Shown here piece by piece: positions 12,276 through 64,000 of a DNA stretch of 64,000 nucleotides. The stretch is from Aphrocallistes beatrix. Its lineage: Eukaryota > Porifera > Hexactinellida > Sceptrulophora > Aphrocallistidae. Below the pieces are notes generated by a model. It saw only the letters and a list, made by a program, of their open reading frames with translations, did no database searches and was not told where the DNA came from. Location: NCBI GenBank assembly GCA_963281255.1, contig OY725498.1, positions 3,906,001-3,970,000 of the forward strand, read 5' to 3'. Position 1 is the first letter of the stretch. Each line of letters opens with the position of its first letter. Made by a program: the position numbers and the translations under genes.

Positions 12276-13522
12276 TTAGAATATCAATAGACGATTATTG
12301 TAACGTACGAGGATGATTCTTCCTCTTGCATCTAGTGTGATACCAACTGGATGCTGGATGCTATCAGTGATTTTATGAACTAAATCTCCTTCTTGATTGA
12401 ATAGAACAATAGCGTTTTGGCTATAATCTGATATAATAAAGTTACCAGCACCATCTATACAGAATGAATAGGAACACGTCAAATGTTTGGAAATAGAATT
12501 GAGAACAGCATTCTGCACCTGAGTGAGGTTATAGTTGAAAGAATAGAGGAAAGGGTTAGTGTAGCTCAGTACATAAATGTACTCGTTGGTTAGTTTTATG
12601 TCAGAAGGAGACTTCAGTATTCCTTTACCAAACTGAGACTTGAATAGGAAATCTTTGGAGAATATTTGAACTCGATCATTACCACAGTCACATACAAATA
12701 TATCTCCATTCGATTCATTGATAGTAATGCCATATGGGGATTTTAACTGTCCTTCTCCATTCCCTGGAGTTCCTATCTGTTTCAGAAATGTTCCATTTAA
12801 ATCATAAATTAACAAACAGCCAGCTCCGTTCTGAGATACAAACACTTTACTTTGGTAGAAAGCAATGTAACGAGGAGTATTCATTTACCAGCTCCACCTC
12901 TATCTCCAAACTTGTACAAATACTTTCCATCTTTGTCGAATACTTGCACTCTGTGGTTACTCTGATCTGCTACGAAAATATTACCAGTCTGATAGTGCAC
13001 TGCTACTCCAGAAGGATTAGAGAATTGTCCTTCCTTACTACCTGATGTCCCTCCTATACTGAGTACAGGAGTCACTTTTCCCTCATAATCTACTACAGGT
13101 AGGCTAGATACTACAGAAGTAGAGTTAGTAACAGTAAGTCTACCAATAGTACCAGCTAACTCCAATATTGTCTTGTCAAATTCAAGACTGATGTGTTTGG
13201 ATTGGAACTGAGATTCAACTTCTTTTCGTTTCTCGGCTGTTAGTTTGATGATAAATTCTTGAAATTGTTTGAGATCATTCGATTTGTAGTTTTCTTTGAC
13301 TAAATTCAATCCTGTTTCAAGTTCTGTTAGAGATTGTTTGTGTTTATCTCTTTCTCTTTTGTAATTGTTCAGAATTTCTTCTAATTCGTTTAAAAGTTGC
13401 CTCTCCCTCTCTCTCACACAATTCATCAGTTCACGGAAACGAGATTCAATTTCACATTTCACTTTAGAGACTTGGTTCTCAAAACTCGATTCTTCAGAAG
13501 GAACTACTGAAGCTGTAGCCAT
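12276..13522 (-). pseudogene. NHL-repeat gene copy 4, one-base frameshift
   Basis: The first 213 codons match the family (coiled coil and first blades). At 12881-12890 the family sequence GGTAAGATGAAT is GGTAAATGAAT: one G is lost, creating a stop after GGAGK. The remaining 202 codons continue in the next frame to the normal end. Otherwise well preserved, which suggests recent inactivation. The pseudogene at 21939-23731 carries the same lesion. Confidence 0.85.
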
Positions 13523-13607
13523 TGATTATAAAAAATCTAACAAACAACACAGTTATTCTATTAAAAATGATAAAATCTTCTCATAATTTGTGTAAAACTA
13601 GATACTT

Positions 13608-19788: not shown

Positions 19789-19905
19789 TGATTATAGAAA
19801 ATCTAACACACAAACACAGTTATTCCATTAAAATGATTAAATATTCACATAATTTGTGTAAATCATACGTAGTTTAATAGGGGGCTGGACCTGGGATCTA
19901 GTCTG

Positions 19906-26915: not shown

Positions 26916-29460
26916 ATGGCCACACCTCTCACTATCGCGATCCCCCCATTACAGGAACGGCAAACGATAGCAGCATGGGAGCCCCTCTTTATCGCTGCGG
27001 TTTCAGCAATAGACCAGAAGGCAGCAATAAAACTCCTGCCGGCCTATGTTAAGAGAGGGAGACTCGAAGAGAAGGTCGTATTAGGCGCGATGGGGAAAGA
27101 GACGCTGGCAGATGCTTTTACCTACCTCAAAGAACGCCTGGACCCAGAGGTAGATATGTTCGACGCCGCAGCGAATTTCCGCAGGATGGCTTGGAGTCCC
27201 GGTGAAGCTATTCAAGATTTCTTTACTCGCTACCTTGAAGAGCAGTGAGGGCAGGGCTCCCGGTCAAAGCTGCGTGCGTGTTCATGGTTTCTCAAACCCC
27301 AGCGGAGATACGGCCAAAGCTGAAAGAGTGGATCAGGTCAAAGGAAGGAGACTTGGCTGAGGACGCGGCTCTGCAGTTTGGAATGGTGCTCCGAAAAGCG
27401 CTGGCGGAGAAAGGTATCCCCACCGACCATGGATGTCGTGTTCAGCATGTTAGGGAGTTCTCCCCCTCCTCTGAACTGGGCGAGTCTGGGGAAAGAAGTA
27501 ACGATTCTAGTGAACCCGAGACCATCAAAGTGCAGCAAATTAGTCGAGAAAGCCGGAAGAGAGAGCCCAAGGGAAAACCCGGACGACTACAATGCTATTG
27601 CTGTGGTTCTCGTGACCACCTGTTTCGTTTTTGTCCGAACAAGCGTTGCTCAATGTGCGGTAGATCAGGTCATAAGCCCGCCGACTGCCCTCAGAAAGGG
27701 GTTAGAACTGGAGACCAAAAGGAGTCAAGGACTAACGATAGAAACCGAGTGTTCCTGTTTCTGGCGGCGACGAAGAAGCTGTAACGATCGAGGTGTACTT
27801 AGGCCCCCATAGAATCGAAGCTATGTTAGATACGGGTGCGAAGCCCAGCGTGATCGACGTCGACACAGCACATAGGCTAGATCTTCGGGTCGTTCCGGAT
27901 GCGTACAAAGTCTACGGCCTATGTAACAACCCTGTCAGGGTTATGGGATATGTGGAAGTACCAATCAGAGTGGGCGATATGGAACCCTTAACAGAGCGGA
28001 TCGAGGTCTTGGACAGCGGTGAACCTACACTGCTATTAGGGCGGAAGTTTATGGAGAAACTCGGGAAGGTTACCTTCGACTGGGTTAATGGTCGAGTCCG
28101 GTTTGGGAAATCTTGGGCTACCGTTCACAAGACCCTAGGCGGAGCTACCCCCTTGGTGCGAGCTAGGGTGGCCAAACAAGACGATCCCGAGGTAGCCACA
28201 ATTAGTACCGATAGCGACAAGATGATATGTACGAAGCTCTTCCCAAAGGAGAGAGAGATACTCGAGCATACAGTGAAGGACTTTGACGGCATAATTGCAA
28301 CCCACCATAAACGCCCAAGACGGTGCCTCATCGACGAACCGCACCGGATCCAGACTGGTAACGCACCCCCCCAGAGATCGCGCCCGAGGAGAGTCCCCTT
28401 GCATTGGGAATCCGAAATCGCCAGACAATTAAAGGAGATGCTATCCGCCGACCCTCCCATCTGTAGACCCAGCAAGTCACCCTGGTCCTCCGACGTAGTT
28501 TTAGTCCGAAAGAGAGACGGAACCTTGCGATTCGCGGTCGATTACCGCCGACTAAACTCCGTGATTAACCGCGACGAGTATAGCCTACCTAACCCCCAGT
28601 CAATTTTCGATCGCCTCGCAGGGAGCCGCTATTTCTCGAAACTGGACATCGCCTCGGCTTATTGGTCTATATCTGTTCACCCGGATGATGTCGAGAAAAC
28701 GGCATTCCACACCCCTAGGGGTTTATACGAAATGAATGCGATGCCGTTTGGGTTATGTAATGCCCAGGCCACCTTCCAGAGGGTGATGGACAGGGCTCTG
28801 GAGGGCACCCCTAATTGCGAGAGCTATGTTGATGACATCTTGATCTATTCCCCGAATTTCGATTCCCATGTACAGCACCTAAGAATGGTATTCGACCGTC
28901 TAGGTAAGGCTGGTCTCCAATTGCGGAAGGATAAATGCAAGCTAGGTCACAGATCTCTCGAATTCCTTGGACACAGGGTAACCGAGGAAGGGAAGAGTCC
29001 AGTACCGGAATACCTAGAGAGGCTCAAGTCCTTTCCGGTACCCCGAACACTTACGGAACTTCAGCGATTTATCGGTACGGCAAACTATTATCGATGCTAC
29101 ATTGAGAGAATGTCCGAGATTGCGCATCCCCTGTACTCCCTGTTACTTAAGAGCAGGAGGTGGAATTGGGACGAAGCTTGCCAAAAGGCGTTTGAAGAGT
29201 TGCGCACACGACTAGTCCGCGAACCCGTATCTCTTGCTCACCCCAAATGGAATGAGAATTTCTACTTGGAAGCTGACGCGTGCACAACAGGAGTCGCGGC
29301 CATTCTGTCGCAGCTGGACGAGCACACCGGGAAACTAGGACCCATCCAGTTCTTTTCTGCCGCGCTTAGCTCCAGTCAGGTGAACTACTCGGCTGGCCAG
29401 CTGGAAGCGTGGGCATTAGTTGCGGCTACCCGCAAATGGTCAGTATACCTTAAGGGGGCA
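26916..29460 (+). mobile_element. Ty3/Gypsy retrotransposon, 3'-truncated and frameshifted
   Basis: Gag begins at ATG 26916 and is shifted at 27248. It ends with two CCHC zinc knuckles (CYCCGSRDHLFRFC and CSMCGRSGHKPADC). The pol frame then reads an aspartic protease (LDTGAKPSVID), a reverse transcriptase with ESYVDDILIY, and the start of RNase H (EADACTTGVAAIL) before breaking off near 29460. Integrase and the 3' LTR are missing; 26721-26915 is probably its leader or part of the 5' LTR. GC content is visibly higher than in the neighbourhood. The gag break makes it non-autonomous. Confidence 0.9.
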
Positions 29461-29462
29461 GT

Positions 29463-30903
29463 ATACCTTGAGAGGAAATATAGTCAGATTGAAAGATGTG
29501 GAAATGATAGGAGAGAATATAACATTACTACAACACGTGTATGCACCAGACTGTAGTAATAGAGCATCAGTGATGAGAAGAGAACTGTTCTTAGCTGTCA
29601 TGTCTACATTCTCTGTATTGATCAAGATATTCAAGATATTCTCTAGTTGTGTCCCATTATGGAACCAATTGATCTCGAGTGTCGGGAGAAAGTGTTCCAA
29701 CGTCATGAACTGAGAGGACAAACTGAATGTATCTCCACTGTATAGTAGTTTAGTATTAGGAATAGAAACACCAACTAAGGAAGGAGCTGGTGGGATACGG
29801 ACATTGAGAATGAATGGAGTGGAATTAACCTGTGCAGAACCCAATGAATTGATTAATCTACTCGCGCAATGGTACTCTCCTGCTTCAGAGAAAGATGTGC
29901 TACTGATACTCAGTGTACTTTCTACAATACTAGCGCCTTTATTAGACAGAGATATCTGAATGCCAGTGGAATTGCTGATCAACAGTGAAGTGTTATGATA
30001 CCAATTAATCCTCAAGGCAGATCTGAAACTGGATGGAATAGCAAACTGACATTGCAATTGAGTACGTTCTGTAAAATATGGGGCTTGTGGCGTACTTGTT
30101 AATTGTAGATAGATGGGATTTGGAGGAAGATTTAGGTTTAATTGAAGAAATTGTGAAACAGAAACCTGACTGTTTCCAACCGTCGCTTGACAAATGTAGA
30201 TTCCTTCATCATTAAATTGAACTTCAGAAATGGTCAGAGTACTGATTGCTACAGCACCAGTATGAACTGTGAGAATGGTTGTGAGATCGTTATCCTCCAC
30301 TATTACTCCATCTTTGTACCAGTTAATTAAAATTGGTGAAGAAATATTCGCAAAGCTAGAAAAACGACATTCCATTCTAATTTCATCGCCGAAATAGATG
30401 GAAGCTTGTGACAGGAATTCAATTAATAAAAATTGAGGAGATGGAGGTATAACAACAATCGTTATTGTATCTGTAGACATTCCTAATACATTGGAAGCTG
30501 TACATGTATACTCATCAGAGTTATATTCTAGTAAGAGATTGGTGTCAAGAGTAGCAGTTGATGAGCTTATGCTACCTGTCCAGAAATAGATTGGAAGTGG
30601 ATGAGGAGAGTTACTGTGTTCACAATTGAGTACAGGAGTATTGGTACCGATAACCACTTGTATCACAGTCTGACCTGGTGATATGGTAGCAGTGGGTGGA
30701 ACAGGATTCTGTGAGAATATCCCAACTGTGATTCTAGGATTAGTGTCACAAGTGTAAAACCCTTCACTCCCGCTTTCAATTGTTCCATTCAAGACAAGGT
30801 TACTTCTACCTACACGTGGGTTTGTAGTATACGGAAATATGTCTGAGTCAGTATTAACTGGTATTGGTTCTTTATTGAGACTACGATTTGGGTTTGCATA
30901 CAG
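29463..30903 (-). pseudogene. Ig-domain receptor fragment, truncated at both ends
   Basis: An open frame of about 470 codons, closely related to the receptor at 58860-60785. It includes the shared strings LNKEPIPVNTDSDIFPY and NSPHPLPIYFWTGSI, then four to five Ig-like domains with W...Y-x-C cores. Its 5' end stops at about 30903 just after an in-frame TAA, and its 3' end runs into the Ty3 fragment (the last dozen codons are transposon-derived). The membrane segment and tail are therefore absent. In the last Ig domain the first core cysteine is replaced by serine (FSLSSQF). An exon boundary at 30903 is possible, but a dead fragment is more likely. Confidence 0.75.
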
Positions 30904-31134
30904 AACTTAATAGTCACTCTGTAAACGCGCCACAGTTTTCGAAAAGGCAACCCGGTTGCAGTCTGTTTCGGTTTGAGGGAGCCCTGTTATTCAGAAGTGG
31001 ACTGTAGGATTAAAGAAAAAGAATCATTACATAGCATTGTAACTCTAAAGTCATTACAATAAAATTTTGAAAGAAAATGAAAAATAAAACAGCGAAAGAA
31101 TATACATGAGCATGACATGTTATAAAATAGGGAA

Positions 31135-32383
31135 TTAGAATATCAATAGACGATTGTTGTAACCTACGAGGATAATTCTCCCTCTTGCATCTAGTGTGAC
31201 ACCAAAAGGACTCTGTATGCTATCAGTGATTTTATGAACTAAATCTCCTTCTTGATTGAACAGAACAATAGCGTTTAGGCTACAATCTGATATAATAAAG
31301 TTACTAGCACCATCTATACAGAATGAATTGGGTTGTTTCAAATGTTTGGAAATAGAATTGAGAACAGCATTCTGTACCTGAGTCAGGTTAAAGTTGAAAG
31401 AATAGAGGAAAGGGTTAGTGTAGCTTAGTACATAAATGTACTCGTTGGTTAGTTTTATGTCAGAAGGAGACTTCAGTATTCCTTTTCCAAACTGAGATTT
31501 GAATAGGAAATCTTTGGAGAATATTTGGATTCGATTATTACCATAGTCACACACAAATATATCTCCATTCGATTCATTGATAGTAATGCCATATGGGGAT
31601 TTTAACTGTCCTTCTCCATTCCCTGGAGTTCCTATCTGTTTCAGAAATGTTCCATTTAAATCATAAACTAACAAACATCCAGTTCCCAAATGAGATATAA
31701 ACACTTTACTTTGATAGAAAGCAATGCAAAGAGGATAATTCATCTTACCAGCTCCATCTCTATCTCCAAACTTGTACAAATACTTTCCATCTCTGTCGAA
31801 TACTTGTACTCTGTTGTTACTACTGATCTACTACGAATATATTACCAGTCTGGTAGTGCACTGAGACTCCAAAAGGATGAGAGAATTGCCCTTCCTTACT
31901 ACCTGATGTCCCTCCTATACTGAGTACAGGAGTTACTTTTCCCTCATAATCTACTACAGGTAGGCTAGATACTACAGAAGTAGAGTTAGTAACAGTAAGT
32001 CTACCAATAGTACCAGCTAACTCCAATATTGTCTTGTTAAAGTCAAGACTGATGTGTTTAGATTCGAAATGAGATTCAACTTCTTTTCGTTTCTCTGTTG
32101 TTTTTGCGATTATAAATTCTTGAAATTGTTTGAGATCATTCGATTTGAAGTTTTCTTTGACTAAATTCAATCCTGTTTCAAGTTCTGCTAGAGATTGTTT
32201 GTGTTTATCTCTTTCTCTTTTGTAATTGTTCAGAATTTTATCCAATTCGTTTAAAAGTTGTCTCTCCCTCTCTCTCACACAATTCATCAGTTCACGGAAA
32301 CGAGATTCAATTTCACTTTTCACTTTAGAGACTTGTTTCTCAAAACTCAATTCTTCAGAAAGAACTACTGAAGCTGTAGCCAT
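31135..32383 (-). pseudogene. NHL-repeat gene copy 8, one-base insertion
   Basis: Codons 1-187 are normal. Near 31826 one extra base turns CAGAGTAAC into CAGTAGTAAC, giving a stop just after FVVDQ. The remaining blades continue in the other frame (31135-31820) to RIILVGYNNRLLIF. It belongs to the second large duplication block. Confidence 0.85.
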
Positions 32384-32525
32384 TGATTATAGAAAATCTA
32401 ACAAACAAACACAGTTATTTTATAAAGAAACATGTGACATAATTTGTATATTAAAGTAAATTTCTTAAAGGACCTTTCATTGGAACATAATTTATATCCA
32501 ATATTTAATAATGGGGTGGGGGAGC

Positions 32526-32956
32526 TGGATTATTCATCTACCTATTATTACTTGTATCTTTGGCTTTGAGTTGGATTGGACAGTTTCTAAAATATTATGC
32601 CACAAATAATGGAGTGTCCTTGTGGACTCCGAAACATTTGCAAGCCATTTCCTATGGAATTTTATTTATTCTCTTTATGGAAAAATGATAGTTGGGAACA
32701 AACTTTTGATAATTCAATATTATCAATGATGCGATATATTCATAATCCGGGGGGATTATATGATTATCATATTTAAATTTCGTTTGCAAAACTTAAATAA
32801 ATGTTCAAAAATATTCCAATTCAACACTTTTGGTTGTGTTTTCATAGATGCTAATACAAAATATCTTGACAATTTCTTCATCACAATATTTTAGAAAGTT
32901 GCCCGATTGAAATCAAACTCAAAGTCAAAGATAATAATAGGTAGGTGAATAATCCT
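32526..32956. mobile_element. TIR element of about 430 bp
   Basis: Inverted ends of about 50 bp (GGATTATTCATCTACCTATT and its complement). It is absent from the equivalent place in block 1 (about 9410), so it is an insertion. Target duplication is unclear (possibly TA), and no coding sequence is seen. Confidence 0.65.
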
Positions 32957-36845: not shown

Positions 36846-38070
36846 TTAGAATATCAATAGACGATTGTTGTAACCTACGAGGATGATTCTCCCTCTTGCA
36901 TCTAGTGTGACACCAAAAGGACTCTGTATGCTATCAGTGATTTTATGTACTAAATTTCCTTCTTGATTGAATAGAACAATAGCGTGTTGGGTATAATCTG
37001 ATATAATAAAGGTACCAACAACGTCTATACAGAATGACCAAGGTTGTTTCAAATGTTTGGAAATAGAATTGAGAACAGCATTTTGTACCTGAGTGAGGTT
37101 ATAGTTGAAAGAATAGAGGAAAGGGTTAGTACAGCTCAGTACATAAATGTACTCGTTGGTTAGTTTTATGTCAGAAGGACACTGCAGTATTCCTTTTCCA
37201 AACTGAGACTTGAATAGGAAATCTTTGGAGAATATTTGGACTCGATTATTACCCCAGTCACACACAAATATATCTGGATTCAATTCATTGATAGTAATGC
37301 CATATGGGGATCTCAATTGTCCTTCTCCATTCCCTGGTGTTCCTATCTGTTTCAGGAATGTTCCATTCAAATCATAAACTAACAAACAACCAGCTCCGTG
37401 CTGAGATACAAACACTTTATTTTGATAGAAAGCAATGCAAAGAGGAGTATTCATCTTACCAGCTCCATCTCTATCTCCAAACTTGTACAAATACTTTCCA
37501 TCTTTGTCGAATACTTGCACTCTGTGGTTACTCTGATCTGCTACGAAAATATTGCCAGTCTGGTAGTGCACTGCTACTCCATGAGGAGAAGAGAATTGTC
37601 CTTCCTTACCACCTGATGTCCCTCCTATACTGAGTACAGGAGTCACTTTTCCCTCATAATATACTACAGGTAGGCTAGATACTACAGAAGTAGAGTTAGT
37701 ACAACTCCAATATTGTCTTGTCAAAGTCAAGATTGATGTGTTTAGATTCGAACTGAGATTCAAATTCTTTTTGTTTCTCTGTTATCTTTCCGATCATAAA
37801 TTCTTGAAATTGTTTGAGATCATTCGATTTGAAGTTTTCTTTGACTAAATTCAATCCTGTTTCAAGTTCTGTTAGAGATTGTTTGTGTTTATCTCTTTCT
37901 TTTTTGTAATTGTTGAGAATTTGTTCTAATTCGTTTAGAAGTTGTCTCCTCTCCCTCTCTCTCACACAATTCATCAGTTCACGGAAACGAGATTCAATTT
38001 CACTTTTCACTTTAGAGACTTGGTTCTCAAAACTCAATTCTTCAGAAGGAACTACTGAAGCTGTAGCCAT
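36846..38070 (-). pseudogene. NHL-repeat gene copy 9, 26-bp deletion
   Basis: The coiled coil is normal except for one added arginine codon (RERERRQLL). Near 37700 about 26 bp encoding ELAGTIGRLTV are missing, which shifts the frame and gives two overlapping open frames (38070-37696 and 37763-36846). The blades run on to the standard end RIILVGYNNRLLIF. Confidence 0.85.
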
Positions 38071-38194
38071 TGATTATAGAAAATCTAACAAACAAACACA
38101 GTTTTTCCATCAAAAGTGATTAAATATTCACATAATTTGTGACATACGTAGCTTATAGTTGGGATTTAATAGGGGGCCTGGACCTGTGATCTAG

Positions 38195-44130: not shown

Positions 44131-46301
44131 TTTATTTATATTCAGATATTTTCACACCTAACTTGAGGTAAAGTTCAATATTAACTTTCAATGAAATGGA
44201 AAGAACAAGTTGGTAACAGTTCTACTAACCAGTCTACTAGTATCAAAGAAAAGTCAAAGTTATCATTACATAGCATTGTACTAGTAACTCTAAAGTCAGT
44301 CAATAAAATACTGAAAGTAAAAATAAAACAGAGAAAGAATACACATGAGCATGGTAATGTTATAAAATAATTAATTAGAATATCAATAAACGATTATTGT
44401 AACCTACGAGGATGATTCTCCCTTTTGCATCTAGTATCACACCACAAGGTTCCTGTATATTATCAGTGATTTTATGAACTAAATCTCCTCCTTGTTTGAA
44501 CACAACAATAGCGTTTTGGTTATTATCTGATATACTAGTAATAAAGTTACCAGCACCATCTATACAGAATGAAAAGGAATACGTCAAATGTTTGGAAATA
44601 GAACTGAGAACAGCATTTTGTACCTGAGTGAGGTTATAGTTGAAAGAATAGAGGAAAGGGTCAGTGTAGCTCAGTACATAAATATACTCGTTGGTTAGTT
44701 TTATGTCAGAAGGACACTGCAGTATTCCTTTTCCAAACTGAGACTTGAATAGGAAATCTTTGAAGAATATTTGGACTCGATCATTAGCTTTGTCACACGC
44801 AAATATATCTCCATTCAATTCATTGATAGTAATGCCATATGGGTATTTCAACTGTCCTTCTCCATTCCCTGGAATTCCTCTGTTTTATTCTGTTTTAGAA
44901 ATTTTCCATTCAAATCATAAACTAACAAACAACTAGCTCTGTGCTGAGATACAAACACTTTATTTTGGTAGAAAGCAATGCAAAGGGGAGAATTCATCTT
45001 ACCAGCTCCATCTCTATCTCCAAACTTGAATAAATACTTTCCATCTTTTTCGGATACTTGCACTCTGTGGTTAGTCTGATCTGCTACGAAAATATTTCCA
45101 GTCTGGTAATGCACTGCCACTCCCCTAGGATCAGAGAATTATCCTTCCTTACCACCTGATGTCCCTCCTATTATACTGAGTACAGGAGTCACTTTTCCCT
45201 CATAATCTACTACAGGTAGGCTAGATACTACAGAAGTAGAGTTATTAACAGTAAGTCTACTAATAGTACCAGCTAACTCCAATATTGTCTTGTCAAAGTC
45301 AAGATTGATGTTTTTGCATTGGAACTGAGATTTAACTTCTTTTAGTTTTTCTGTTGCTTTTGCGATTGTAACGTTCAAGTAGTTTTTAGAGAACCTTAGT
45401 GTTCTCACTTAGCTAGTAGTTCAATAGTAGATCCCAGGCTAGTTAGGGTATAGCCATGGCCTACTTAACTCAGGCCTCACAGTAGAATGTGAAATTTGGA
45501 CCAGGGATGCGATCGAAGCCGAACAATGAAATACCAACTTTTCAATATTTCGTGGTAATTTAAGTACATAATGATTTGAGTGATAGCCTTGAGCGTTCAC
45601 ATTTGATCTAACCCTCATTAATTTCTATTTTAAATGTCTCCATCATCTATACTATATTGAGTATTGAAGTGATATCATATCATATATTTCATTTAAATAA
45701 TTGAAATAAACAAGACAATACTAGTATTACAATCACAATTAATAATGTATTAAAACAGTTTTACAATACATAAACTTTCTTTCGATCATTTTAGCGCTGT
45801 TGTTGTCTCCGATTAACAAATTGAGGGTTGAGTTACTGGCATGTGAGAAAGGTTGGCCGCGCTTACAGCTGAACTAAATAAAGAAAAATAAAGTTAAACA
45901 CATACTATATTAAAATATAAGGATATTAAGAGTTAAATTTTTTCAATTTACGTTTTTCAATTCCTCTACATACTACCATGGAATTATATTTTTTTACTTT
46001 ATTAGCTATCATACTTGTACAATTTCCTGAAACAAATAACAACCTACGTAGAATCGAAAAATAAGGAATATTGCAGGAAGGACATGTATTTTCCCAGACA
46101 TCACAATCATTGTTATCTACTATTGAGTTTAAAGCAAGCTCGACTAGAATTTTCCTCGCTGGCCCTTCATGGTAACAGACGAACAATACAGGACCATTTT
46201 TTCTGAAGGCTAGAGACCATGATAGCAATTACAGTTTTCGTAGGATATCTGGACATACACGTATATTGGATCCTATAATTTTGCCTCCCTTGTATGATAT
46301 A

Positions 46302-47660: not shown

Positions 47661-49166
47661 GGGCCGTATTCACTAAGAAGTTAAGCACTAAGTTCGAACT
47701 TAAGTACTAAGTTCGAACTTAAGTATTAAGTTCGAACTTAGTTAAGTCGGAGCAAAACCCGTATTCACTAAGAGTTCGTACTTAAGTACTAAGTTTAAAC
47801 TTAGTTAAGTTCGAACTTAACTCGTATTCACTAAGATTTAAGTTCGAACTTAAGTTTAAACTTAACTAAGTTCGAACTTAAGTACCAACTTTTATTATGA
47901 ATATACTTGAGCACATGATTAAATAGTGCTAACAAGCAAAACACTGGATATCTTTGAAGTATGATATTTAAAAGACATCAACTACATTCATTTTCACACA
48001 AGTAACCAAAATCAAACGAACAAAATAACGGCTAAATATATACATCAAAGTATCCAAAAAATCATAAACAGTTCGGAAAAAGAAATAGTAGAAGTGCAAA
48101 ACGATTGAATAAAGGAAGAGGAATGCACATTGATTGAAAGCATTGAAATTGTTGGTGATTCGGTTAGGGGGTCAGTTAATAACGCCGAAATCAACAAGAA
48201 AAAAGGCACTGTGGATTGACAAGGAAGTTCCTTACAAATAGAGGGGTTGATGAGGTGGAAACAAGTGGAACAAGCTCAAACTAGCCGAAAGGTTACTGCT
48301 AACCATCGCCATAGGAAGGCTAATGGGACTGGAAGTGGCTCTAACTAATGTTGGTATCGTTCAAGAAGTTGAGACACTCATTCTCTCTGCAGACAAGACT
48401 CTGACAAACACCAAGAGAATATCACAAATGTTTGAGAGTAGCCCATCTTTCAGTGGGAATTCAGGCACAGCGAAAGTCAAATCGAAGTCGAAAACGGAGA
48501 CGTGAAGCTTCCTCCGAGTTTGATCAGCCAAAGTTGACAGCATCCGTTTTAGTCTCTGCGAAGTACTCTATTAACCAATGCTAGTTCTCGGAGCAGCTGA
48601 TATTAATCGAAGAGCAAGAGCTTCTCATAAACTGAGAAGGGAAAATATTGAATCGTTAACAGCTAGATGTAGAGTTTGTGTAGATCTTTAATTTAGATAA
48701 GTTTAGAAATGTTGTATTGTTAGGCATACCGGCGTGAATCAAATTTATACATCAAATGATGTTATGAAATTGAAGCAATATTATCGAATAGAATGACGAA
48801 CAAAACAAGTTAGATGCTAATCTCTATGTAGTGTAATGTCATAAGTGTTGATACTTCAAAGAAAAGTAGACTATATGTCGATAATTAGAAGCTTACGAAT
48901 ATTTAAGCCACCTCTGGAGGTTACTTAAAGTTGTTACTTAAGTCTAAACTTAAGCACAAACTTAAATCTTAGTGAATACCGATCTCGGCAAAAACGAGTT
49001 AAGTTCGAACTTAGTGCTTAACTAGGTTGCTTAAAGTTCGTACTTAAGTTCGTACTTAAGTTCGAACTTAAGTTGATCTTAGTGAATACCATTTAAGCTC
49101 GAACTTAGTACTTAAGTACTAAGTTCAAACTTAAGTACGAACTTAAAATGTTAGTGAATACGGCCC
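47661..49166. mobile_element. TIR element with GGGCCGTATTCAC ends, 4-bp TSD
   Basis: Ends GGGCCGTATTCACTAAG and TTAGTGAATACGGCCC, bordered by CTGG on both sides (47657-47660 and 49167-49170). Removing it restores the THAP finger frame. Both subterminal regions (about 250 bp) are packed with TTAAGTTCGAACTTAAG palindromes. The core (48180-48530) has out-of-frame pieces such as KWNKLKLAERL and TANHRHRKANGTGSGS, vaguely like a Myb/SANT-type domain of Harbinger-like elements. Superfamily uncertain. Confidence 0.75.
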
Positions 49167-52124: not shown

Positions 52125-55100
52125 TTAATGCAAGAATTCAATCTTGACAGAACCCTGGTCAGCTAACTGCTCGAGGAGTTCCAACTGTTCTGATTCAGGA
52201 CTGGATAGCTCAGGTTTGTTAAAGTACAGTTGTCTCACATGTGGAAGTGTCTGTATGAGACACATTAGCGTGACACATGAAGCAGAAGTGAGTTTGCAAT
52301 ATCGTACAGTTAGCAGCCTGATAGCTGGATGGCAGGATAGACTGCTACACAGTACCAGCATACCTGAGTCTTGGAATGGGATATCGTAGAGTGACAAGTA
52401 AACCAGTGAGTTTAGAGCTGACACAGCTCTGTACCAGCAACTCATATCCTCAGAACTGAATCAAGTACGACTCAGCTCTAACCTCATCAAGTTAGAGCAT
52501 GACGTGATAACATTGAAGAAACTATTCAAACTGTGAAACTCGACTTCATGTAAAAAAGGTAAATAAATATGTCTCAGCGATTTAGAGTTTGAATTAATGA
52601 GTTCAGTCAGTGAGTGTAGAAGGGATTCATTGGGAGATGGACGAGTACGAGAGAATAGATTCAGTTGTGTGAGAGAGTTAATGCCTTGTAAGGAAGGCAT
52701 GAGACTGTAGCTATCTCCTTCAGTTACCCAATCTAACTCTATTAGGGAGGAGAGGCTTGATAAGTCAGGTGTCACTGGGAGGTAACCTTGAAGATCTCGA
52801 ATGTAGAGTCCATTAAGCTGATGGTTAGCTATTAACTGGGAGATAATGGACCAATCGGATTCACTCGACTTAGGACTATAGAACAAATTCTGTAGAAAAG
52901 AGAATTGATTGGCTAACTCGACTAACATCTGTTGGTTCATTTCACATTCGTATAACATCAAACTCCCAGTGAATTGATTGGCGCAGGAGAATAGCCGTAG
53001 AGAGGAGTGGCAGGCTGTCAGGTCACAGGAATGCAAGTGGATACTAACTTTAGTGTTAAGTGGCAGAGTGGCAGAGGTGAGGATATTCGTGTATGGATGG
53101 ATTCCATCAAATTCCTTTTCATTGAAAAACAGTGCTACGTGTCGGACACAACAAGTGGACAGCTGATCGAGGAGGGAGCGGAATTGTGTCGCGGTTACGT
53201 AATCAGATTGGAATTGGATTATTTGGAATTGGCGGACATATTCCATCGCTCGCAGGAAGCAGTGCCATTCGTTCGGGGAGATGGTGTCGAGAAAATAGAG
53301 GTAGAGAGGGGAGGGAAACCTCTCTTTGAAATAGTTGAAGTGTTCAGGAATGGAATCTGAGTTGGTTTCCATTATGACAGTACAAAGGAGAAGGAATGAT
53401 TGTGTGAATTCCCTACAATCTGAGATGTCAACAAGTTCTTTGTAATAACGTAACCGATCGCTCATGGGGACTTCACAGAGTGACATGGGCACTGGGAGTG
53501 CGTGGTGGCAGAGAACGGGCGTCATGAAACCTGCGTCCCGCTTCAAGATGCCACTAACAAAGCGAATCACCATATTGTACATGGACAGGTACTGGGTGGA
53601 AGTCGTGAAATAGCGGATGATGTAGCACTGATTTCTCCACGCATTGTCGCATATGGAAACTGCGGCCATGAACTCTTGAATTGTGAGGTGTTGGAATGTC
53701 CACACCTTCACACGAACACCAAAACTCGTCACTTTAATATGAGCCTGCATCAGACCGAGACGTTCACTGTTCAGGGATTCGCCTTCAAGTTTTAGTGGAA
53801 TGTGTCTGTCAGAAGTTAGTTCTCTTTCGAAAATTCCTTGATTCGCTTCCAGTCCGATTTCATGGATGCATTCTCTGATGGCCGGGTCGAAATTAGACAA
53901 ATGGAGAACTTTGCTGTGTTCTTTGAGGCCCATTCTGGACAATTGGCGCCTGATTATGTATACGATCAGCTGGAGGTACAGGTGGGACAGAGTGTGACTT
54001 AGGATGGAATATGATTGGTTAAATAGAGAGCTAAACAGACTCGCGTTCACTGGCACGAGTGCGAGCTGTTTTATCTCGTCGTGACGAAGGAACATCTCAC
54101 GGACGGCATTCAACTTTTAAACACTCTCAATTCGTTTGGAAAAGTATAGGTCTCGGTTTTGAGGAGAGAATCCGAGGACCTGGAAGTTGTCATCGATCTT
54201 GAGATCCTTGCCATAATCGAGATGGAGTTCAGTCCATTGGCTGGGACGACTTGTCACTAGGATGGTAGAGAGAGTGAGGAAGCGTCTCTCTAGAATTTTA
54301 CAGAGTAGAGTGGAGTCGAACGGAATGCTCTTAATCAACTCATCGGTACCGTCCATGATGATGAACAGTCCCTCTCCGTCTGATCTCAGCAAGTGCTGGG
54401 AGAGGGATCGACTCCATTTAGCGCCAAAATACATGGAAAGGGTGAGCCATCTCAAAATGAATTCCTCGTCGATCTTATTTTATTTCTCGTGTCTCGCCTC
54501 CTCGAGTTGATGCCACTCCGGATTGCGACACGGTATGGAAATGGTGTAGCGGAAATTGGTCAGCTGGTGACTGCCATACAGGAAGGCAAAGTGTGTGCAG
54601 AGGAAGCTCTTACCACTGCCGGGGTTCCCTATCAAGCACCATACTTTACTTTCTGAAGAATCGCTAGTGGTGACAATGGACTCGAAATCTACCACTTCTA
54701 CCTTTTCGAACTCGACCTTTTCATGGATGTGTCGCAAGAAATCGTTTTCGTTTATGCCACTATCCTCCTCCATTCTCTTTTCAGGAGTTTCAACCTTTAT
54801 GACAGTGAGGGGTGTGAAGACGGATTCTATGGGGACACTGGCCTCATCGAGAACGACACTAACATCCTTGTGGTGTGTTTTCATGTATTTGGTTAGTTTG
54901 AATTCCCAAAATTCAAGATCTTCATCGTTATCATTGCCAATATTTAATTCGAGAAGCATTTCACTTTGAAAACGTTCTTGAGACATATCTCGGAACACTG
55001 AAACGTAATTACGAACTTGCTTCGCCATGTCCTGTCGCTCCATTAGGTCTAGGGATTCGCAGAGGTCATTCATGTCAGTGGTTATAATGTTATTCTCAAC

Positions 55101-55526
55101 GCAGAGTCTCAACATTTCGTGTGACCCTTCATCTCCCTTAACACTCACTTCCGCACTACAGCTGGTTAGTACGACCCATTGTTGTGTGGTTATTTCGGTC
55201 GTAAGTAAATCAACCAGCGTTTTCGCGGATTTCGGTTTGTCGCTAGTTCTAGGTTTAAAATAAGGCGTGCTTAGCCATTCTAACTGTCTAGCTTGGTGGA
55301 GAATGCTGTGATGCCCAATGGACTGTAATGCTAAGTCAAACCTGCTAGGATTGAAATGTTTCCAATTCTTCAGTGAATTCAAAAAGAGAATTGGATCCTT
55401 CCCTGTGTCCTGTTGAATTTTGGAGGATAATTCGATAGCGTTCTGTAACCTTTGGAGAATTTCTGGTGTAAACAGTTTTCCGAGTTCTGTAAATACTTTT
55501 ATCTGTCGTTTTCTATCGTCAGACAT
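52125..55526 (-). pseudogene. NLR: death-fold-like domain, NACHT, LRR; three in-frame stops
   Basis: One frame of 1,134 codons, interrupted only by TAA (54480-54482), TAA (54117-54119) and TGA (52461-52463); no shift is needed across them. Residues 1-90 and about 100-185 look like helical death-fold modules (for example FLNSLKNWKHFNPSRFDLAL). NACHT follows with Walker A GNPGSGKSF (300-308) and Walker B LFIIMDGTDEL (about 387-397), then a winged-helix region and, from about 800, irregular leucine-rich repeats. Such proteins are cytosolic sensors that oligomerise on ligand; the ligand here is unknown. ATG 55526 follows an in-frame stop. It is either a young pseudogene or an allele or assembly with errors. 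Confidence 0.8.
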
Positions 55527-56152
55527 TTTAACCTAAAGGAAAGTGTCTCGAGTCAATTCCTAACTAAGATCTTGCTAAAGTTTAGTTGTATTATCACATA
55601 TATCGTACAATTCTTATTGGTAGAAACTCTAGAAGCAAATTGTGTCGCGCTGCACAACCCCCTATATAATATGTGCATGCTCTCACTAGAAAAGGGCTGT
55701 ATAATACCCTGATATCCAGAACATCAAAGGAGCAGCGCTCTTATTTTGAGGAGTGACTCACTGAGGCGATCTCCCTTTAATAAAGTTTGTTGAACTCAAT
55801 ATTCCCCGGTATCTAAAAATTTTTCTCAACGTTTCCTAATGAAATTTGTGATTCAATACATTAAAATGATAGGAAATAACGGCTCACTTTATAACGCATT
55901 ATCCATGGTTATGTAATAAATAAACAATACTAAATTAACTCCTAACTTCATTTAACATTATCCATGGTCATTAAACGATCAATTAACATAGAAATAAGGA
56001 CTTTGCTCTAATTCTACATTGTCCATGGTTAACCAATGAATAAGCAATACTAAAATTAGCTCTTAGCTCGATTTTTCATATCCATGGTCCGTAATGGACA
56101 TCTACAGGATAGTACAGATTCCAATGTAAGATTTAGCTCCAACTATCCCAAC
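55527..56152. repeat. Spacer with ATCCATGG tandem repeat
   Basis: From 55900 to 56110, four degenerate units of 50-70 bp each carry CATTATCCATGGT or a close variant, followed by AATAAACAATACTAAATTA. The spacing is irregular. The remainder upstream of the NLR start holds no gene that I can see. Confidence 0.55.
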
Positions 56153-58050
56153 TTGCATGAATCGCCAACACGTATCCCTTCTGGTTCTTCTTGATCTTAG
56201 CTCAGCCTTCGACACCGTCGACCATACCATCTTACTCAACCGTCTCCAGTCTCATTTCGGCATTTGCGGCTCTTCTCTGTCCTGGTTTGAATCTTACCTC
56301 TCTGGTAGGACTCAATTCGTCTCGATTAAGGGTTCTAATTCCTCCAATATCCCGGTCCAACACGGAGTTCCTCAGGGTTCTTGTCTTGGTCCGCTTCTCT
56401 TTAGCCTCTATACTAGTCCTCTATTCGACCTCATTAGGTCCCACCTCCCCGACATGCACTGCTATACCGACGATACTCAGGTCTATCTTTCTTTTAAACC
56501 CGGTTCCATCTCTTCTGAAGAATCTGCTTTCTCTGCCATACAATCTTGCATCTCCGCGATCCGTTCCTGGCTCCTCACCAACAAGTTGCTTATCAATGAC
56601 ACCAAGATTGAGTTCCTTATAATAGGGACTCGTCAACAACTATCTAAGGTTCAAACTGATAGCATCTCTGTTGGTGAGTCGAGAATCTCTTCTTCCAAAG
56701 AAGTACGGAATCTTGGAACTTGGCTCGACAATACCCTCTCAATGTCTACTCAGGTCAGCAAAGTTGCCTCCTCCTGCTTCTATTACATCTATAACATCCG
56801 GCGTATTAGAAAGTATCTCTCTAGGGAAGTCTGTGAAACTCTTGTTAATTCTCTTATCACATCTCGTCTTGATTATTGTAACAGTATCTTGTATGGTTGC
56901 CTCTCATCCCTCTTAGCTCGACTCCAGCGAGTCCAGAACAGTGCAGCCAGGCTTATCTACAATGTCTCTCGTGCCTTTTCGTCATCTCCTCTTCTTATTA
57001 ACCTCCACTGGCTGCCTGTTAAACATCGTATCCTCTTCAAAATCCTCCTCATAACTTACAAAGTCATCCATTCTCTTGCTCCGGACTATATCATCCAGCT
57101 CATACAGGTTAAGTCATCCAATCGTACTCTACGATCATCCAACGCCATCCTCCTTGAACATCCTACTATCAAATCTTCCAAAACTCTGGGTGATCGTGCA
57201 TTCACTTTAGCTGCGCCTGTTGAGTGGAATCTTCTGCCTCCGAGCATTCGGAATGCCCCCTCACTTCTTCTCTTCAAAACACTCTTGAAAACTCATCTTT
57301 TCCGTATCGCGCACGACACATCCACTTAAATTAATTTCAATGCATATACATACCTTACAAGCATACATACGCATACATACACATCAGAGTGGACCATGGG
57401 TCACTTACAGTGACCCATGACCCATCTGACCCATTGCATGTGTGACCCATGACCCAGTGACCCAGTGACCCAGTGACCCAGTACGTGACCCAGTGACCCA
57501 GTATGTGACCCAGTATGTGACCCAGTGACCCAGTGACCCAGTATGTGACCCAGTGACTCAGTATGTGACCCAGTGACTCAGTATGTGACCCAGTGACTCA
57601 GTATGTGACCCAGTGACCCAGCACGTGACCCAGTGTAATACTCAATCATATAAATTTGTTGTGGTTACCTACAAACACTTTAATTATAAAGAAGTTTTCG
57701 AATCGTTTGTTTGCGACTATACAATAGTATAGTCGCCAACTATAAAAATGAGCGGCTATATATTATATATTATATATATAGGTCACTGGGTCAAGGGATT
57801 GTGACCCATGACCCATCGACTTATGTAGCCCATGACCCTGTAATCCAGTGACCCAGTGACTGGGTCAAGAGGTCGTGACCCATGACCCAACTGACCCAGC
57901 GATTTATGTGACCCAAGTGACCCATGACCCAGTGACCCATGGTCCACTCTGATACACATACATACGTACATGCATAACACACACCTACTTTTATTGAATT
58001 GTACAACGCACTTGAACATATTAATATGGAATCTTCGCTATATAAATGTA

Positions 58051-58083: not shown

Positions 58084-58859
58084 ATATATGAGCTTATTTG
58101 TATGTATGATTAAATTGTAAATAAACTATTGAATTCAGCGGATTATAACTAAAATGGAGGAATTAACTTACTCGGATCAAATTCAAGTTCGTTGTTTCCG
58201 TTGATTTGTGTGTTGATTCTCAATGATTGAAATGTTTATGTTATTATTAGTGTTCAGATTCGTGTTTAGATTCGGCTGGAATCGTTTGGAAATCGTGGCG
58301 ATTAGTCCTGAATAGTTGTTCAGTATAGCTGTTGCTAGTTTGAAGAAAATGGTCTAGATGTTATCTCTATTGATTTGTGCATACAAGCAACGAGATTGGG
58401 GCAGAGAACTCTGCTACAGGGTCACTCATGAATTAATTACTCCCTATCTTGTCTAGAACTGACCATTAAGCACATTCCTTCGCCTAATCACTGCGGAAAT
58501 CGCTTATTTAGATTGATTGAAATTTTCAAATTCTAGAATCATTCACGAAAATTGAGCTGATTGCAGTGATACTTGTATATACACACTCGAGTTTCCACAC
58601 GAGTTCAATTATAACTCGAATCTCATAGCATTATCAATAATCATAAAGTTTAAGTTTCATATATACAAATAGCACTATTCTAAAGAAACAAACACTAATT
58701 TTGTACAATTTGTCCAAACTCTATCAACAAGTATACTTCTTCTCCAGAATAGATATAGAGCGATCAGAAGCGCTTAGGAGAGCTAACTATAAGACAGAAT
58801 AAATGTTATTATACTTCGGTCAATATTAACTATAGTAAGTATGAGTAATAGCAACTTAC
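58083..58859 (-). other. Downstream region of Ig receptor; possible last exon
   Basis: The receptor exon ends at a GTAAGT donor (58859-58854, minus strand), so at least one more exon should lie at lower coordinates. A candidate at about 58165-58225 (minus) encodes INTQINGNNELEFDP and is followed by a second GTAAGT. This is weak; nothing else in the stretch looks coding. Confidence 0.3.
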
Positions 58860-60785
58860 ATTGTAATAAGGAGTATCCTGAGTATCAGTCTCTGGAGCTG
58901 GCAATACTTCATAGTCCCTATCTTCCTTCACATCTTCAACTTTTCCAAAATGTTCTATTTCCTTATCAAGCTCATCTATGCAAGCGTATGTTCGAGTAGT
59001 ATCCTCACTCCCTATCTCTTCTAGAGTTGTTTTAGCGTAGTATTGAGGTTCTTCGGAGAGATCTTTACCTACATTGTAATTAGCACCTACAGCATCTGTG
59101 ATCTGATCCATCTCAAAATGTGGTTGATCTTCTTTGGGGGTTTTGGACGTGCATCGACGAAAAATCCTGATAATTAAAATAATCACACATCCAAATATAA
59201 ATAATAACAAAATGATGGAGAGAATTGGAACTATAATGACAAAATAATTATCTAGATTTTGTTTGGATTCGGGAGGAAACAAAGTTGGATCTAGTGTGGT
59301 GGGCGTGAGGACATTTAGGGTGTAAGGAGTAGAATTCGTTTGCCCAGAACTCAAAATGTCCAACATTTTACCCACACAACGATATTCACCGGCTTGGATA
59401 AAAGTTATGTTGAAGAGACTTAGGCTGCTTTCGACCATGTAATGACCCGTATTCATCATCGTTATCTCGATTTCTTTGGTAATGGATAATTTCGTATTGT
59501 TGTGGGACCAGTCAATCTTCAACATTGGTTGGAAACGTCTTTCGGTAGAGAACTCACACTGTAGAAGGGTATCCTGTCCCAGATAATGTGCTTGCGATAT
59601 ACTAACTAATCGTATATGTATTGGATTTGGAGGAGGACTGACTTTTAGTGTCAGATTAGGGGAAACAGACGCCTGACTAGCTCCAATCCTTGCCTGACAA
59701 TGGTAATCTCCTTCTACCTCAATTTGGCTATTTAATAAGTTCAGAAAACCTGTGATTGTATTCTCAATACGGGTAGGACTGATGTTAGCTTCAGATACAA
59801 TTATCCCGTCTTTATACCAATCAATGAGAATTTGAGATGTGACATTTTGAAAAGTAGAGAATTCGCACTGAAGCGTCACGTCATCACTTATATATATCGT
59901 ATCTTGTAATGATTGAATGGAGTTGAATTGAGGAGGTGGAGGTATGACATTTATTGTTACTGTGTCTGTAGACAGTCCTACCACATTTGAAGCTGTACAT
60001 GTATACTCACCAGAGTTAGATTCTAGAAAGAGATTGGTGTCAAGAGTAGCAGTTGATGAGCTTATGCTACCTGTCCAGAAATAGATTGGAAGTGGATGAG
60101 GAGAGTTACTATGTTCACAATTGAGTACAGGAGTATTGGTACCGATAACCACTTGTATCACAGTCTGACCTGGTGATATGGTGGCAGCGGGTGGAACAGG
60201 GTTCTGTGAGAATATCCCAACTGTGATTCCAGGATTAGTGACACAAGTGTAAAACCCTTCACTCCCGCTTTCGATTGTTCCACTCAAGATAAGGTTACTT
60301 CTACCAACACGTGGGTTTGTAGCATACGGAAATATGTCTGAATCAGTATTAACTGGTATTGGTTCTTTATTGAGGCTGCGATTTGGGTTTGCATCAACTA
60401 ACCAATGAGCAGAGTTCTCATTGGATTGTGTTATACAATAAATTATATTAGGAATATCGACACCTATTAAATCAGTTCCATTTGCAATCGGAGTATCGGA
60501 ATCCTCGCTGTTTAAAAGCTGGATAGCTTCACTTGCCAGTATTCTAATGCTAAAGGAAACACTATCTCTGTACGTGTCTTCGCATACGAAATTTCGTTCT
60601 AGTGCTAGAGTAGCTAGAGTGTTCATATTGAAGAACAATCTCCTGGATGTGTCCACAGTGAATTCATTTTGAATTAGACTGAACTCACTTACATCAAGAA
60701 AACGTGAACCAAATATCAATGGACATGTGATATAGAGTTCGATTGAACCAAATCTTGTCTCTGAGAATGCTAGAACTAATACACT
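58860..60785 (-). CDS. Ig-superfamily transmembrane receptor, 3' part
   Basis: About 640 codons. An N-terminal cysteine-containing module (ITCPLIFG... and FVCEDTYRDSVSF) is followed by a LNKEPIPVNTDSDIFPY segment, then three or four Ig-like domains with C...W...Y-x-C cores, many N-glycosylation sequons, one membrane span (YFVIIVPILSIILLLFIFG and following, about residues 516-545) and a tail of about 100 residues with tyrosines in QYYAK, TYACI, DYEVL and YYN contexts; TYACI and DYEVL fit Y-x-x-hydrophobic motifs. The exon ends at the GTAAGT donor, so the last nine codons before the open-frame stop are intronic. The first ATG (60788) is probably not a real start: the missing upstream module lies inverted next to it. 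Confidence 0.8.
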
Positions 60786-60945
60786 CATAACTCAAGCTCA
60801 GTTCAACCCTAATGCTACATGTCAGTACATCAGTTGTAATCCATCTGTTCAGTATCCTGTATTCTCTGACAAACCCTTCTTCCTACAAACCAATGTAACA
60901 GGTGGACAACCTAATTGCAGACCGAACGACCACCTTTATGAATTC
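60766..60945 (+). pseudogene. Inverted receptor segment between the two receptor parts
   Basis: The plus strand here encodes AQFNPNATCQYISC, FSDKPFFLQTNVTGGQPNC and RPNDHLYEF. This matches the module that, in the first repeat of the same gene (about 63500-63700, minus strand), lies between the FGIYWV module and YTCPLVF (FSNTSVCQ, ISDRAFF, LSNSAC). It is exactly the piece missing between the neighbouring minus-strand parts. Flipping it gives a C-to-C spacing of 22 residues at the right-hand join, identical to that in the first repeat. GAAT (60765-60768) and ATTC (60942-60945) are inverted microhomologies at the breakpoints. The other join is one base out of frame. Confidence 0.75.
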
Positions 60946-63900
60946 ATTTTGGGATCACCACAAATTCCCATTGACTTATTTGGTTAGAAGTATCCAAGCA
61001 TTCGATATCATATTTGGATGCAAGATCGACAGAAAAAGTCCCAATTTGGTAAACGAACTCGTAAATTACATTTCCAGGTCCATATAGTCTGACTCCGAAT
61101 ATGTCATCATTATCCTGTCCTACGTAGTATATACCGAAACTTGATTCAATAACTGGACCAGAAGATGGAGTAAAGCTACAAGTAAAGTTGCTCCCTTCTG
61201 TATTAGACGTAATGCCGTTGTTTGTATACAACACACTCTCTCCTGTGTTAGCATTACGGATGTGGTATAGACCTGATGATTGAGCATCAATTGGAATGAC
61301 ATCACCATTCGGTGCATACCAGGTTATTACTTGATCAGGACTGTCTGGTACACAGTAGAACTCAAACACTCCTCCAATAATTATGCTATGAGTTCCACCT
61401 CTGAAGATAGACCCTGATGCAAACTGGACAATCTCTCCATCTCTCATGAAATGCAACCTCACTTCATCAGTACTGAATGTAGTGTCAGGTCCTTGTGTTG
61501 TACCGAATCTATTGGTAGCGTTGACATATACTCTGTATTGACTGTTGAATAGCAATCCTGTTAATGGAAATGAGGTGGAATTGAGTGTGTTAATAGTCTG
61601 GTAGGAGCTATCACCAACTCTCTGATACACCAGTGTGCATGTCTCAGTCAATGATGGAAATTGAATCGATGGAGTCCAAATAATGGTTGCAATTCTTAAT
61701 TCTGAATTTGTGATCGCGACAGGGATTACATTTGGTAATGTTATCGGATTAATAATGACAGAGATAGGAGTGGAATTAGTTGGACTACTAGCACCTACTG
61801 TAGCCACACAAAGATAGTCTCCAGCTTGTGAAAGTGATGAAGCAGTTACTGTGAGTGTACTTGTAGCTGTGTTTCCGTTGGTATTGGTTGTATTAGGGAA
61901 AATAGTATTAAGCGTATTATTGTGATACCATTGTATGGAAATTGAAGATATGAAGGTGGTTTCAAATTTACAAGATAATTGGAAGGAATCTGTAACGAAT
62001 ATATCTCCTAAATCTGGTTGTGGGAGATATATGGCTTGGGGAAGAGGAGGATTTGTGCTGAAATCCTCTCGAGTTCCATTAGTGGATCCGTAGCGATTTG
62101 TTGCAGTTACAAACACAGAATAACTGAAATTAATTTTGAGTCCAGTTATCGCATAAGATGTATTAGCTAGTGATGGAGACTGAGTATAACTATTACATTG
62201 AGGTAGCTCGCAATAGAAAACTACATACGTTTCAGGTGTTGTTCTATTTATATATGTGCCATTCCAATTCAATTGTACGCTCTCTGAACCTATCACCAGT
62301 TGTAATGATATAGAATCAGGCTGATAAGATGCTTCTATTACAATGTTAGTAGAGTTTGAACTGATTGGTTCACTCGTACCAACTACTGCTTGACATCTGT
62401 ACTCTCCAGTATTAGCAGTGACAGTACTAGCTACAGATATTACAGTACGAATTGTATTAGGAACACTTGTAGACATATATTGTATTTGTACACCATTAGT
62501 CTCATTTAGAATAAATATTTCATCCCGTGTCCAGAAGATACGTAGAGAAGTTAGAAATCCAGATTCATAACTGAAGATACAAGAGAGTTGGAATGAGTCT
62601 TCTTCAAAATAGAAATCCATCACAGTCAAATTAGAAGATACAAGTGATGCACGAGGTGGTGAAATAGCAATATTAATTGTCACATCATCTTCTCCTACCA
62701 CATTAGTTCCGTGACATGTGTAGAAACCAGAATTCCCCAATGTAAACCCAGTCGTATCAAGGAAACTCAAGGAGTAGAAATTAGGTCCAGTCCAGTAGTA
62801 CAGAGCAGGAGGATAAGGAGAGTTAGAAGCTACACATGTGATGTTAATCGGATCATTTGTTGGGACTTCAATGCTTGATGCTGTAACTACAGGGGCTACT
62901 GGAGTTTGCAAGAACACTCCTACTCTAACCTCACTAGTACCATCACTACAAGTGTAATAGCCTTCTGTCTCTGAGGTAACTGTTGCATTCAGGAACAAGT
63001 CACTTCTACCAATGCGAGGAGTGATGGCGTAAGGGAGATAGGATGAATTAGAGTGAACTTGTACAGGAGAAACAAACTGACTACGGTTTACAATGTTATC
63101 AAATTTCCACGTCACCTCAACTGTACTACTCATCGACACGCAATACAATGTAGTAGGAATGGCGGTTGAAATATAGTTAATCGAATCTACGACTCCAGTT
63201 GTTGCAGAAACAGAATCAAATACTTCAAGTGGATTATTCCCATCAACATTCATCCTGAAGGATATCCTGGTGCTATACAAATCCTCACAAACATATTCTC
63301 TGTCGTAAACGAGAGAAACTGGGAATGAAGGACTAAAATCTATCCAAATTCTCCTTCTGTTTTCTGTTAGATTTAATGGAGCACTTACTGCTGTCACATT
63401 GCTATTTCCAGTATCTAAGTTTAAATTTCCGGTATCCATGAAAACTCCGTTGAACACGAGTGGACAAGTGTACCTTCTGTCTGGAGATACATCCCCGATT
63501 GTAAGAGTAAGTGGACTTATTGTGCCATTCTCAATGCAAGCGGAATTTGATAATCGTGGATTGTCAATATTTCCTGGTTCATAATTGAAGAAAGCTCTAT
63601 CAGATATTGTTGTATAGAGTTGATCCGAATCACTGGTTCCAATCGACTGACAAACTGAAGTGTTCGAGAAAGTAACATTATCAATGATTGAGGGGATGGA
63701 TGATGGACTAGATGTAACCACATCTGGTCTGAATACAATGCTGCTAGAACCCTTCAATGACTGGATTTTATAACGCTTACTGAAATCGAAATTGAACAAT
63801 CCTCTTTGTAATGTGAACTCAGAGATCACAAGTGGAGTGTCTTTAGTGGAAATTCGAAATCCCCTCAAATCAGTTTGGATAGTATTCGGACCGCTAAGTA

Positions 63901-64000
63901 TTGGTCTCACCCAATAGATGCCGAAATATTTAATCTGTGCATTTACTCCATTCACTCTACAAGTGAAATTATTCCCCTGATTAGCTACACTTATGAAATT
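60944..64000 (-). CDS. Ig/FN3 receptor ectodomain, 5' part (runs off window)
   Basis: Open from the window edge to a stop at 60944; the frame has no ATG at its left end, so the true start lies beyond 64000. Order: a module with FTCRVNGV...FGIYWV, a cysteine module (SVCQ...SDRAFF...YTCPLVF...VCEDLY), two Ig-like domains, FN3 (YVVFYCELPQ...VFVTATNRYGSTNG), Ig, FN3 (YRVYVNATNRFGTTQG), then a second FGIYYV module ending QWEFVVIPK. It is rich in N-glycosylation sequons. With 58860-60785 and the inverted piece it appears to form one gene with two internal repeats. Extracellular recognition or adhesion is likely; the ligand is unknown. Confidence 0.75.
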   Translation of the reverse strand, partial: NFISVANQGNNFTCRVNGVNAQIKYFGIYWVRPILSGPNTIQTDLRGFRISTKDTPLVISEFTLQRGLFNFDFSKRYKIQSLKGSSSIVFRPDVVTSSPSSIPSIIDNVTFSNTSVCQSIGTSDSDQLYTTISDRAFFNYEPGNIDNPRLSNSACIENGTISPLTLTIGDVSPDRRYTCPLVFNGVFMDTGNLNLDTGNSNVTAVSAPLNLTENRRRIWIDFSPSFPVSLVYDREYVCEDLYSTRISFRMNVDGNNPLEVFDSVSATTGVVDSINYISTAIPTTLYCVSMSSTVEVTWKFDNIVNRSQFVSPVQVHSNSSYLPYAITPRIGRSDLFLNATVTSETEGYYTCSDGTSEVRVGVFLQTPVAPVVTASSIEVPTNDPINITCVASNSPYPPALYYWTGPNFYSLSFLDTTGFTLGNSGFYTCHGTNVVGEDDVTINIAISPPRASLVSSNLTVMDFYFEEDSFQLSCIFSYESGFLTSLRIFWTRDEIFILNETNGVQIQYMSTSVPNTIRTVISVASTVTANTGEYRCQAVVGTSEPISSNSTNIVIEASYQPDSISLQLVIGSESVQLNWNGTYINRTTPETYVVFYCELPQCNSYTQSPSLANTSYAITGLKINFSYSVFVTATNRYGSTNGTREDFSTNPPLPQAIYLPQPDLGDIFVTDSFQLSCKFETTFISSISIQWYHNNTLNTIFPNTTNTNGNTATSTLTVTASSLSQAGDYLCVATVGASSPTNSTPISVIINPITLPNVIPVAITNSELRIATIIWTPSIQFPSLTETCTLVYQRVGDSSYQTINTLNSTSFPLTGLLFNSQYRVYVNATNRFGTTQGPDTTFSTDEVRLHFMRDGEIVQFASGSIFRGGTHSIIIGGVFEFYCVPDSPDQVITWYAPNGDVIPIDAQSSGLYHIRNANTGESVLYTNNGITSNTEGSNFTCSFTPSSGPVIESSFGIYYVGQDNDDIFGVRLYGPGNVIYEFVYQIGTFSVDLASKYDIECLDTSNQISQWEFVVIPK

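Follow-up and report, generated by a model that had tools for sequence, protein, structure and literature searches.

Organization of the receptor gene and its surroundings

The window analyzed here is a 64,000-nucleotide stretch (C12:3906001–3970000) of an assembly that totals 100.5 Mb in 28 contigs and whose gene content points, tentatively, to an early-branching animal, perhaps a sponge. It contains, on the minus strand, most of a receptor gene (gene D) whose two halves are separated by a flipped segment. The upstream half (window 60947–64000, minus strand) comprises Ig and FN3 domains and forms an open frame of 1140 amino acids (C12:3966947–3970366), which runs past the window edge to a signal-peptide-like start at C12:3970327 (or an ATG at 3970339). 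The downstream half (58833–60745, minus strand) is a 653-amino-acid open frame consisting of Ig domains, as recognized by Pfam, a putative transmembrane segment at about 59160–59245 and a tyrosine-rich tail ending in ...TPYYNVSCYYSYLL; both the signal-peptide-like start and the transmembrane stretch were recognized by eye alone. Pfam reported Ig_3 above the cut-off in both halves and fn3 in the upstream half only (28.2 bits, cut-off 25), in agreement with the initial annotation of the gene as an Ig/FN3 receptor. Apart from the flip, both halves are free of frame breaks.

Several other features lie in the window. A gene judged NACHT-like by eye occupies 52461–55532 on the minus strand, and between it and gene D sits a 399-amino-acid open frame (56130–57329, plus strand) that looks, again by eye, like a LINE reverse transcriptase. 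At least eight dispersed copies, 90–95% identical, of a sequence of about 1 kb that is NHL/TRIM-like by eye lie at 1581–2666, 8243–9611, 12479–13567, 18744–19860, 22141–22905, 31337–32527, 37048–38106 and 44584–45366, with a relative at C12:3868.6–3870.0k. A fragment of the receptor family (29443–30906) contains a 488-amino-acid open frame that is about 94% identical to gene D over 469 bp; one end of the fragment overlaps an open frame on the plus strand whose protein sequence looks, by eye, like that of a mobile element. An Rfam scan of the window returned no matches.

Orientation of the segment in six relatives

Using window positions 60766–60945 as the query, a BLASTN search of the whole genome identified at least seven places matching the segment, every one on C12. 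Besides the window itself there are six, 88–98% identical and lying within about 610 kb of the contig. All seven candidates were scored, and the counts are lower bounds. In each of the six other copies found, the segment has the same orientation as its own gene; only in the window copy is it reversed. Five of them (B, E1 and the three tandem units E2a, E2b and E2c) keep the segment collinear with its immediate flanks on both sides, all within one open frame. In the sixth, A1, the downstream flank is collinear, about 340 bp of the upstream flank is missing, and collinearity resumes beyond the gap. Counting the end bases common to flank and segment, the window matches its relatives over 218 bp (60743–60960), here on the opposite strand from its flanks, with a best E value of 3e-98, which excludes a chance match. 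The window segment is thus the reverse complement of its homolog, in place, and its un-flipped state in all six other copies indicates that the window copy is derived. The initial annotation had described a plus-strand coding segment lying between two minus-strand gene parts, corresponding to the piece absent between them, and had read it as an in-place inversion within a single receptor gene; the six relatives bear out both points.

The relatives show uninterrupted frames of 1766, 2318 and 3702 amino acids, so nothing in the compared region points to introns. B is the closest relative over the whole of gene D; the two are about 115 kb apart, oppositely oriented, and stay similar into the neighboring NACHT-like gene (so called by eye). 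B has a lesion of its own, a 1-bp deletion near the 5' end (C12:3848440) that places its signal-peptide-like start out of register with the 1766-amino-acid frame. E1 is open over 2318 amino acids, and both E1 and E2 encode an intracellular Y_phosphatase domain with the signature VHCSAGVGRTG. Both full-length copies of the tail type that were compared, D and B, are therefore broken, by different single events, and the two phosphatase-type genes are open.

The giant frames at C12:4382232–4389185 and C12:4392845–4403950 (2318 and 3702 amino acids) each combine a D-like ectodomain with an intracellular protein tyrosine phosphatase. Among known systems, receptor-type protein tyrosine phosphatases whose ectodomains consist of Ig and FN3 domains come close: E1 and E2, near relatives on the same contig, have Ig domains (E1 also FN3) together with Y_phosphatase domains inside the cell. 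Gene D, with a similar ectodomain, lacks the phosphatase and ends instead in a short tyrosine-rich tail. Having near-identical ectodomains attached in some genes to a phosphatase and in others to such a tail is reminiscent of paired receptors. A genome search with the downstream half of gene D gave 27 matches, located on C12, on C11 and, in one weak case, on C7.

Ends and joins of the inversion

Comparison with the six relatives by BLASTN, followed join by join, places the inverted segment, a cysteine-bearing piece of the ectodomain, at 60746–60960 on the plus strand. It measures 215 bp in the window versus 213 bp in B, E1 and E2a–c. The ends proposed initially, 60766 and 60945, fall inside these positions, and the relatives align farther out on both sides. 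At the first join, the flank carries CAA (TTG on the coding strand; 60961–60963), with two bases more than an exact TTG/CAA exchange would leave. At the second, TTG (60743–60745) is common to flank and segment, constituting a 3-bp microhomology. Across the left end the relatives have gggaatTTG|AACC, and across the right one CAC|CAAtcg (CAC|CAAtag in E2b), so TTG...CAA forms a 3-bp inverted match exactly at the ancestral ends. An exchange at TTG/CAA accounts for both joins, apart from the two extra bases at the first.

These joins revise several details of the first description. The GAAT/ATTC motif taken there for breakpoint microhomology is internal to the segment, the joins themselves showing TTG/CAA and a 2-bp insertion. 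The cysteine spacing of 22 residues, said to be restored by flipping, is not that of the five relatives (B, E1 and E2a–c), which have 37 residues between cysteines at the first join and 20 at the second. The second join had been described as one base out of frame; this is correct in effect, since +2 equals −1, and its cause is the two extra bases.

The suggestion that the inversion was microhomology-mediated fits the TTG/CAA at the ends, but weakly, as the match is only 3 bp long and, among comparably sized cut pairs drawn at random from gene B, about 6% show an inverted match of at least 3 bp in total. A 10-bp inverted repeat, TGAACCAAAT, is present at the left end and 31 bp past the right end (B, E1); a 10-bp inverted repeat near both cuts was found at 70 of 736 sampled positions (9.5%). 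Neither the 3-bp match nor the 10-bp repeat establishes a mechanism. Inverted recombination sites at both ends of the segment were not found, the sequence there offering only the shared 3 bp and a repeat lying 31 bp off on one side.

Effect on the reading frame and search for further inversions

The upstream frame meets a stop (60944–60946) just inside the flipped piece (...QWEFVVIPK-stop), and the flip thereby terminates the gene D frame ahead of the transmembrane segment. We re-flipped the segment in silico at 81 breakpoint pairs (60740–60748 by 60955–60963). None of the 81 yielded an open frame through gene D, the best one opening as far as residue 1094, counting from window base 64000; the result thus lends no support to simple flip-flopping between two functional states.

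For further in-place inversions, 224 kb of sequence were compared all against all by BLASTN (E up to 1e-3), with a reversed match of 20–3000 bp and flanking matches of at least 40 bp within 60 bp on both sides; the result describes these 224 kb rather than a genome-wide rate. Twelve rows were returned, ten pairing the window segment with five relative copies in both directions and two representing one 45-bp repeat pair; A1 was not among them, its upstream flank being partly missing. No second in-place inversion was found among receptor-family copies in the 224 kb, and a family-wide programmed inversion was rejected on this basis. The members of the 45-bp repeat pair (47681–47725 and 49093–49137) are oriented differently from their flanking repeats.

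Divergence and selection on the two halves

At sites aligned in D, B and E1, changes found only in the window amount to 4 of 213 within the segment, 32 of 1460 downstream of it and 88 of 3405 upstream, where the aligned stretch takes in a few bases ahead of the start codon. Exchange between copies by gene conversion could have blurred these figures as well as the dN/dS values below. The segment is about as diverged from its relatives as are its flanks, which argues that a piece of the gene itself was reversed rather than recently imported. Import of the segment from a relative, which we also considered, is not supported, given the same near-equality.

In the downstream half, the D branch carries 13 synonymous and 15 replacement changes (dN/dS 0.33), compared with dN/dS values of 0.38 for B, 0.24 for E1 and 0.29 pooled. 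The corresponding upstream values are 0.59 for D versus 0.42 for B and 0.34 for E1, a nominal rise. In the upstream half, the tally of steps to a stop gave one single-base step each for D and E1; these derive from multiply changed codons, and both frames are open. No stop occurs in the 1911 nt of the downstream half, and no decay is seen behind the flip. Had the downstream half decayed along the whole D branch, 15 or fewer replacements among 28 changes would be expected with P = 0.004 (0.06 for half the branch, 0.24 for a quarter), and 2.97 stops would be expected where none is seen (P = 0.05; P = 0.23 for half the branch). An old pseudogene is thus unlikely where decay over the whole branch is concerned (P = 0.004 for replacements, 0.05 for stops), and decay over half of it is not firmly excluded. 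With no stop and a dN/dS of 0.33 near the pooled 0.29, the inversion looks recent relative to the gene duplication, judging from the sequence comparison. The near absence of decay is also expected of an artifact, a rare allele or a gene still in use.

Discussion

We consider it probable (about 0.75) that a germ-line microinversion, arising after gene duplication through microhomology-assisted repair or template switching, truncated one receptor duplicate. Duplication would have come first, followed by the inversion of about 213 bp in one member of a family of Ig/FN3 receptor genes, each of which reads as one long exon. The segment would have been copied or rejoined in reverse between the short inverted matches TTG...CAA, possibly by microhomology-mediated break-induced replication or a double template switch, the rejoining leaving two extra bases at one join. 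The outcome would be a truncated gene whose product, if made, would be a soluble ectodomain devoid of the transmembrane segment and tail. What the sequence shows is the reversal relative to six relatives, its ends, its effect on the frame and the lack of decay behind it; the germ-line origin, the repair route and this product are what we infer. Counting against the proposal, the 3-bp match is not significant alone, matches of this kind being found at about 6% of random cut pairs.

Comparable events have been described in primates. The part of PMC8755829 drawn on here reports 59 human–chimpanzee microinversions of 17–33 nt, 45 of the 59 being pure. In 11% of the 59, the inverted repeats measure just 3 nt per flank, and the model put forward there is one of microhomology-mediated break-induced replication. 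Like those inversions, the one in the window puts the reverse complement of a segment where the segment itself stood, and short inverted matches meet it on either side; unlike them, as far as that account goes, it is 213–215 bp long and impure (two extra bases), was found through paralogs within one genome and lies inside a coding frame. Template-switch mutations are, according to the portion of PMC7954356 used here, widespread in great apes, and they share with the present case that local reverse-complement copying explains the sequence. The microinversions of that set are mostly shorter than 15 nt, according to the same part of PMC8755829, and the window case, in contrast, comes from one species.

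On one assembly, an assembly flip or a heterozygous polymorphism is possible. The reading in which the genome itself is un-flipped and the reversal arose only in the library or the consensus, through faulty assembly or DNA amplification, strikes us as unlikely. Multiple-displacement amplification makes inverted chimeras and is a possible source, and the rest of gene D is undamaged, with no clear relaxation behind the flip. Yet the assembly is contiguous, with no N across the six blocks examined, and clean ends with two extra bases would rarely be a product of consensus errors. Moreover, the junction was found once when up to two mismatches were allowed, and the genome search revealed no un-flipped near-identical copy, the next best copies being 96% (over the full 180 bp) and 98% (over 168 bp) identical.

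That the flipped gene is in use, yielding a soluble decoy ectodomain and perhaps, from a new start, a shorter membrane protein as well, seems quite improbable. Both halves are open and show no further damage, the upstream half keeps its signal-peptide-like start, and the antisense of the flipped piece provides a candidate new start (MSVLVLAFSETRFGS...), whose ATG opens the downstream frame. However, the new N terminus looks by eye like a poor signal peptide, a recent break predicts equal openness, and upstream dN/dS on the D branch is if anything higher than in the relatives (0.59 versus 0.42 and 0.34). We think it very improbable that the population maintains the flipped form as a standing allele because a membrane receptor becomes a secreted ectodomain, perhaps plus a shorter receptor. 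Were this true, near-identical ectodomains would occur both in soluble form and on membranes, beside phosphatase-bearing relatives.

We give hardly any credence to the reversible or somatic DNA switch raised initially, which would turn the receptor on and off: although a receptor family with near-identical copies and the 10-bp repeat TGAACCAAAT at the left end and 31 bp past the right would suit it, only 3 bp are common to both ends, one join has two extra bases, leaving the segment that much longer than in five relatives, no re-flip of the 81 restores the frame, the 10-bp repeat does not lie at both ends and its like is found near both cuts at 9.5% of sampled positions, the six relatives found are all in one state, and the search of 224 kb yielded no further inversion among family copies.

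What happened in gene D thus looks like an ordinary recent mutation and not like a switch. The case is clean and well bounded, a microinversion of intermediate size inside a coding frame, polarized by six close relatives from the same genome. Both orientations, if found in living animals, would raise its importance greatly. As it stands, the inversion shows one route by which gene copies are lost in a receptor cluster.
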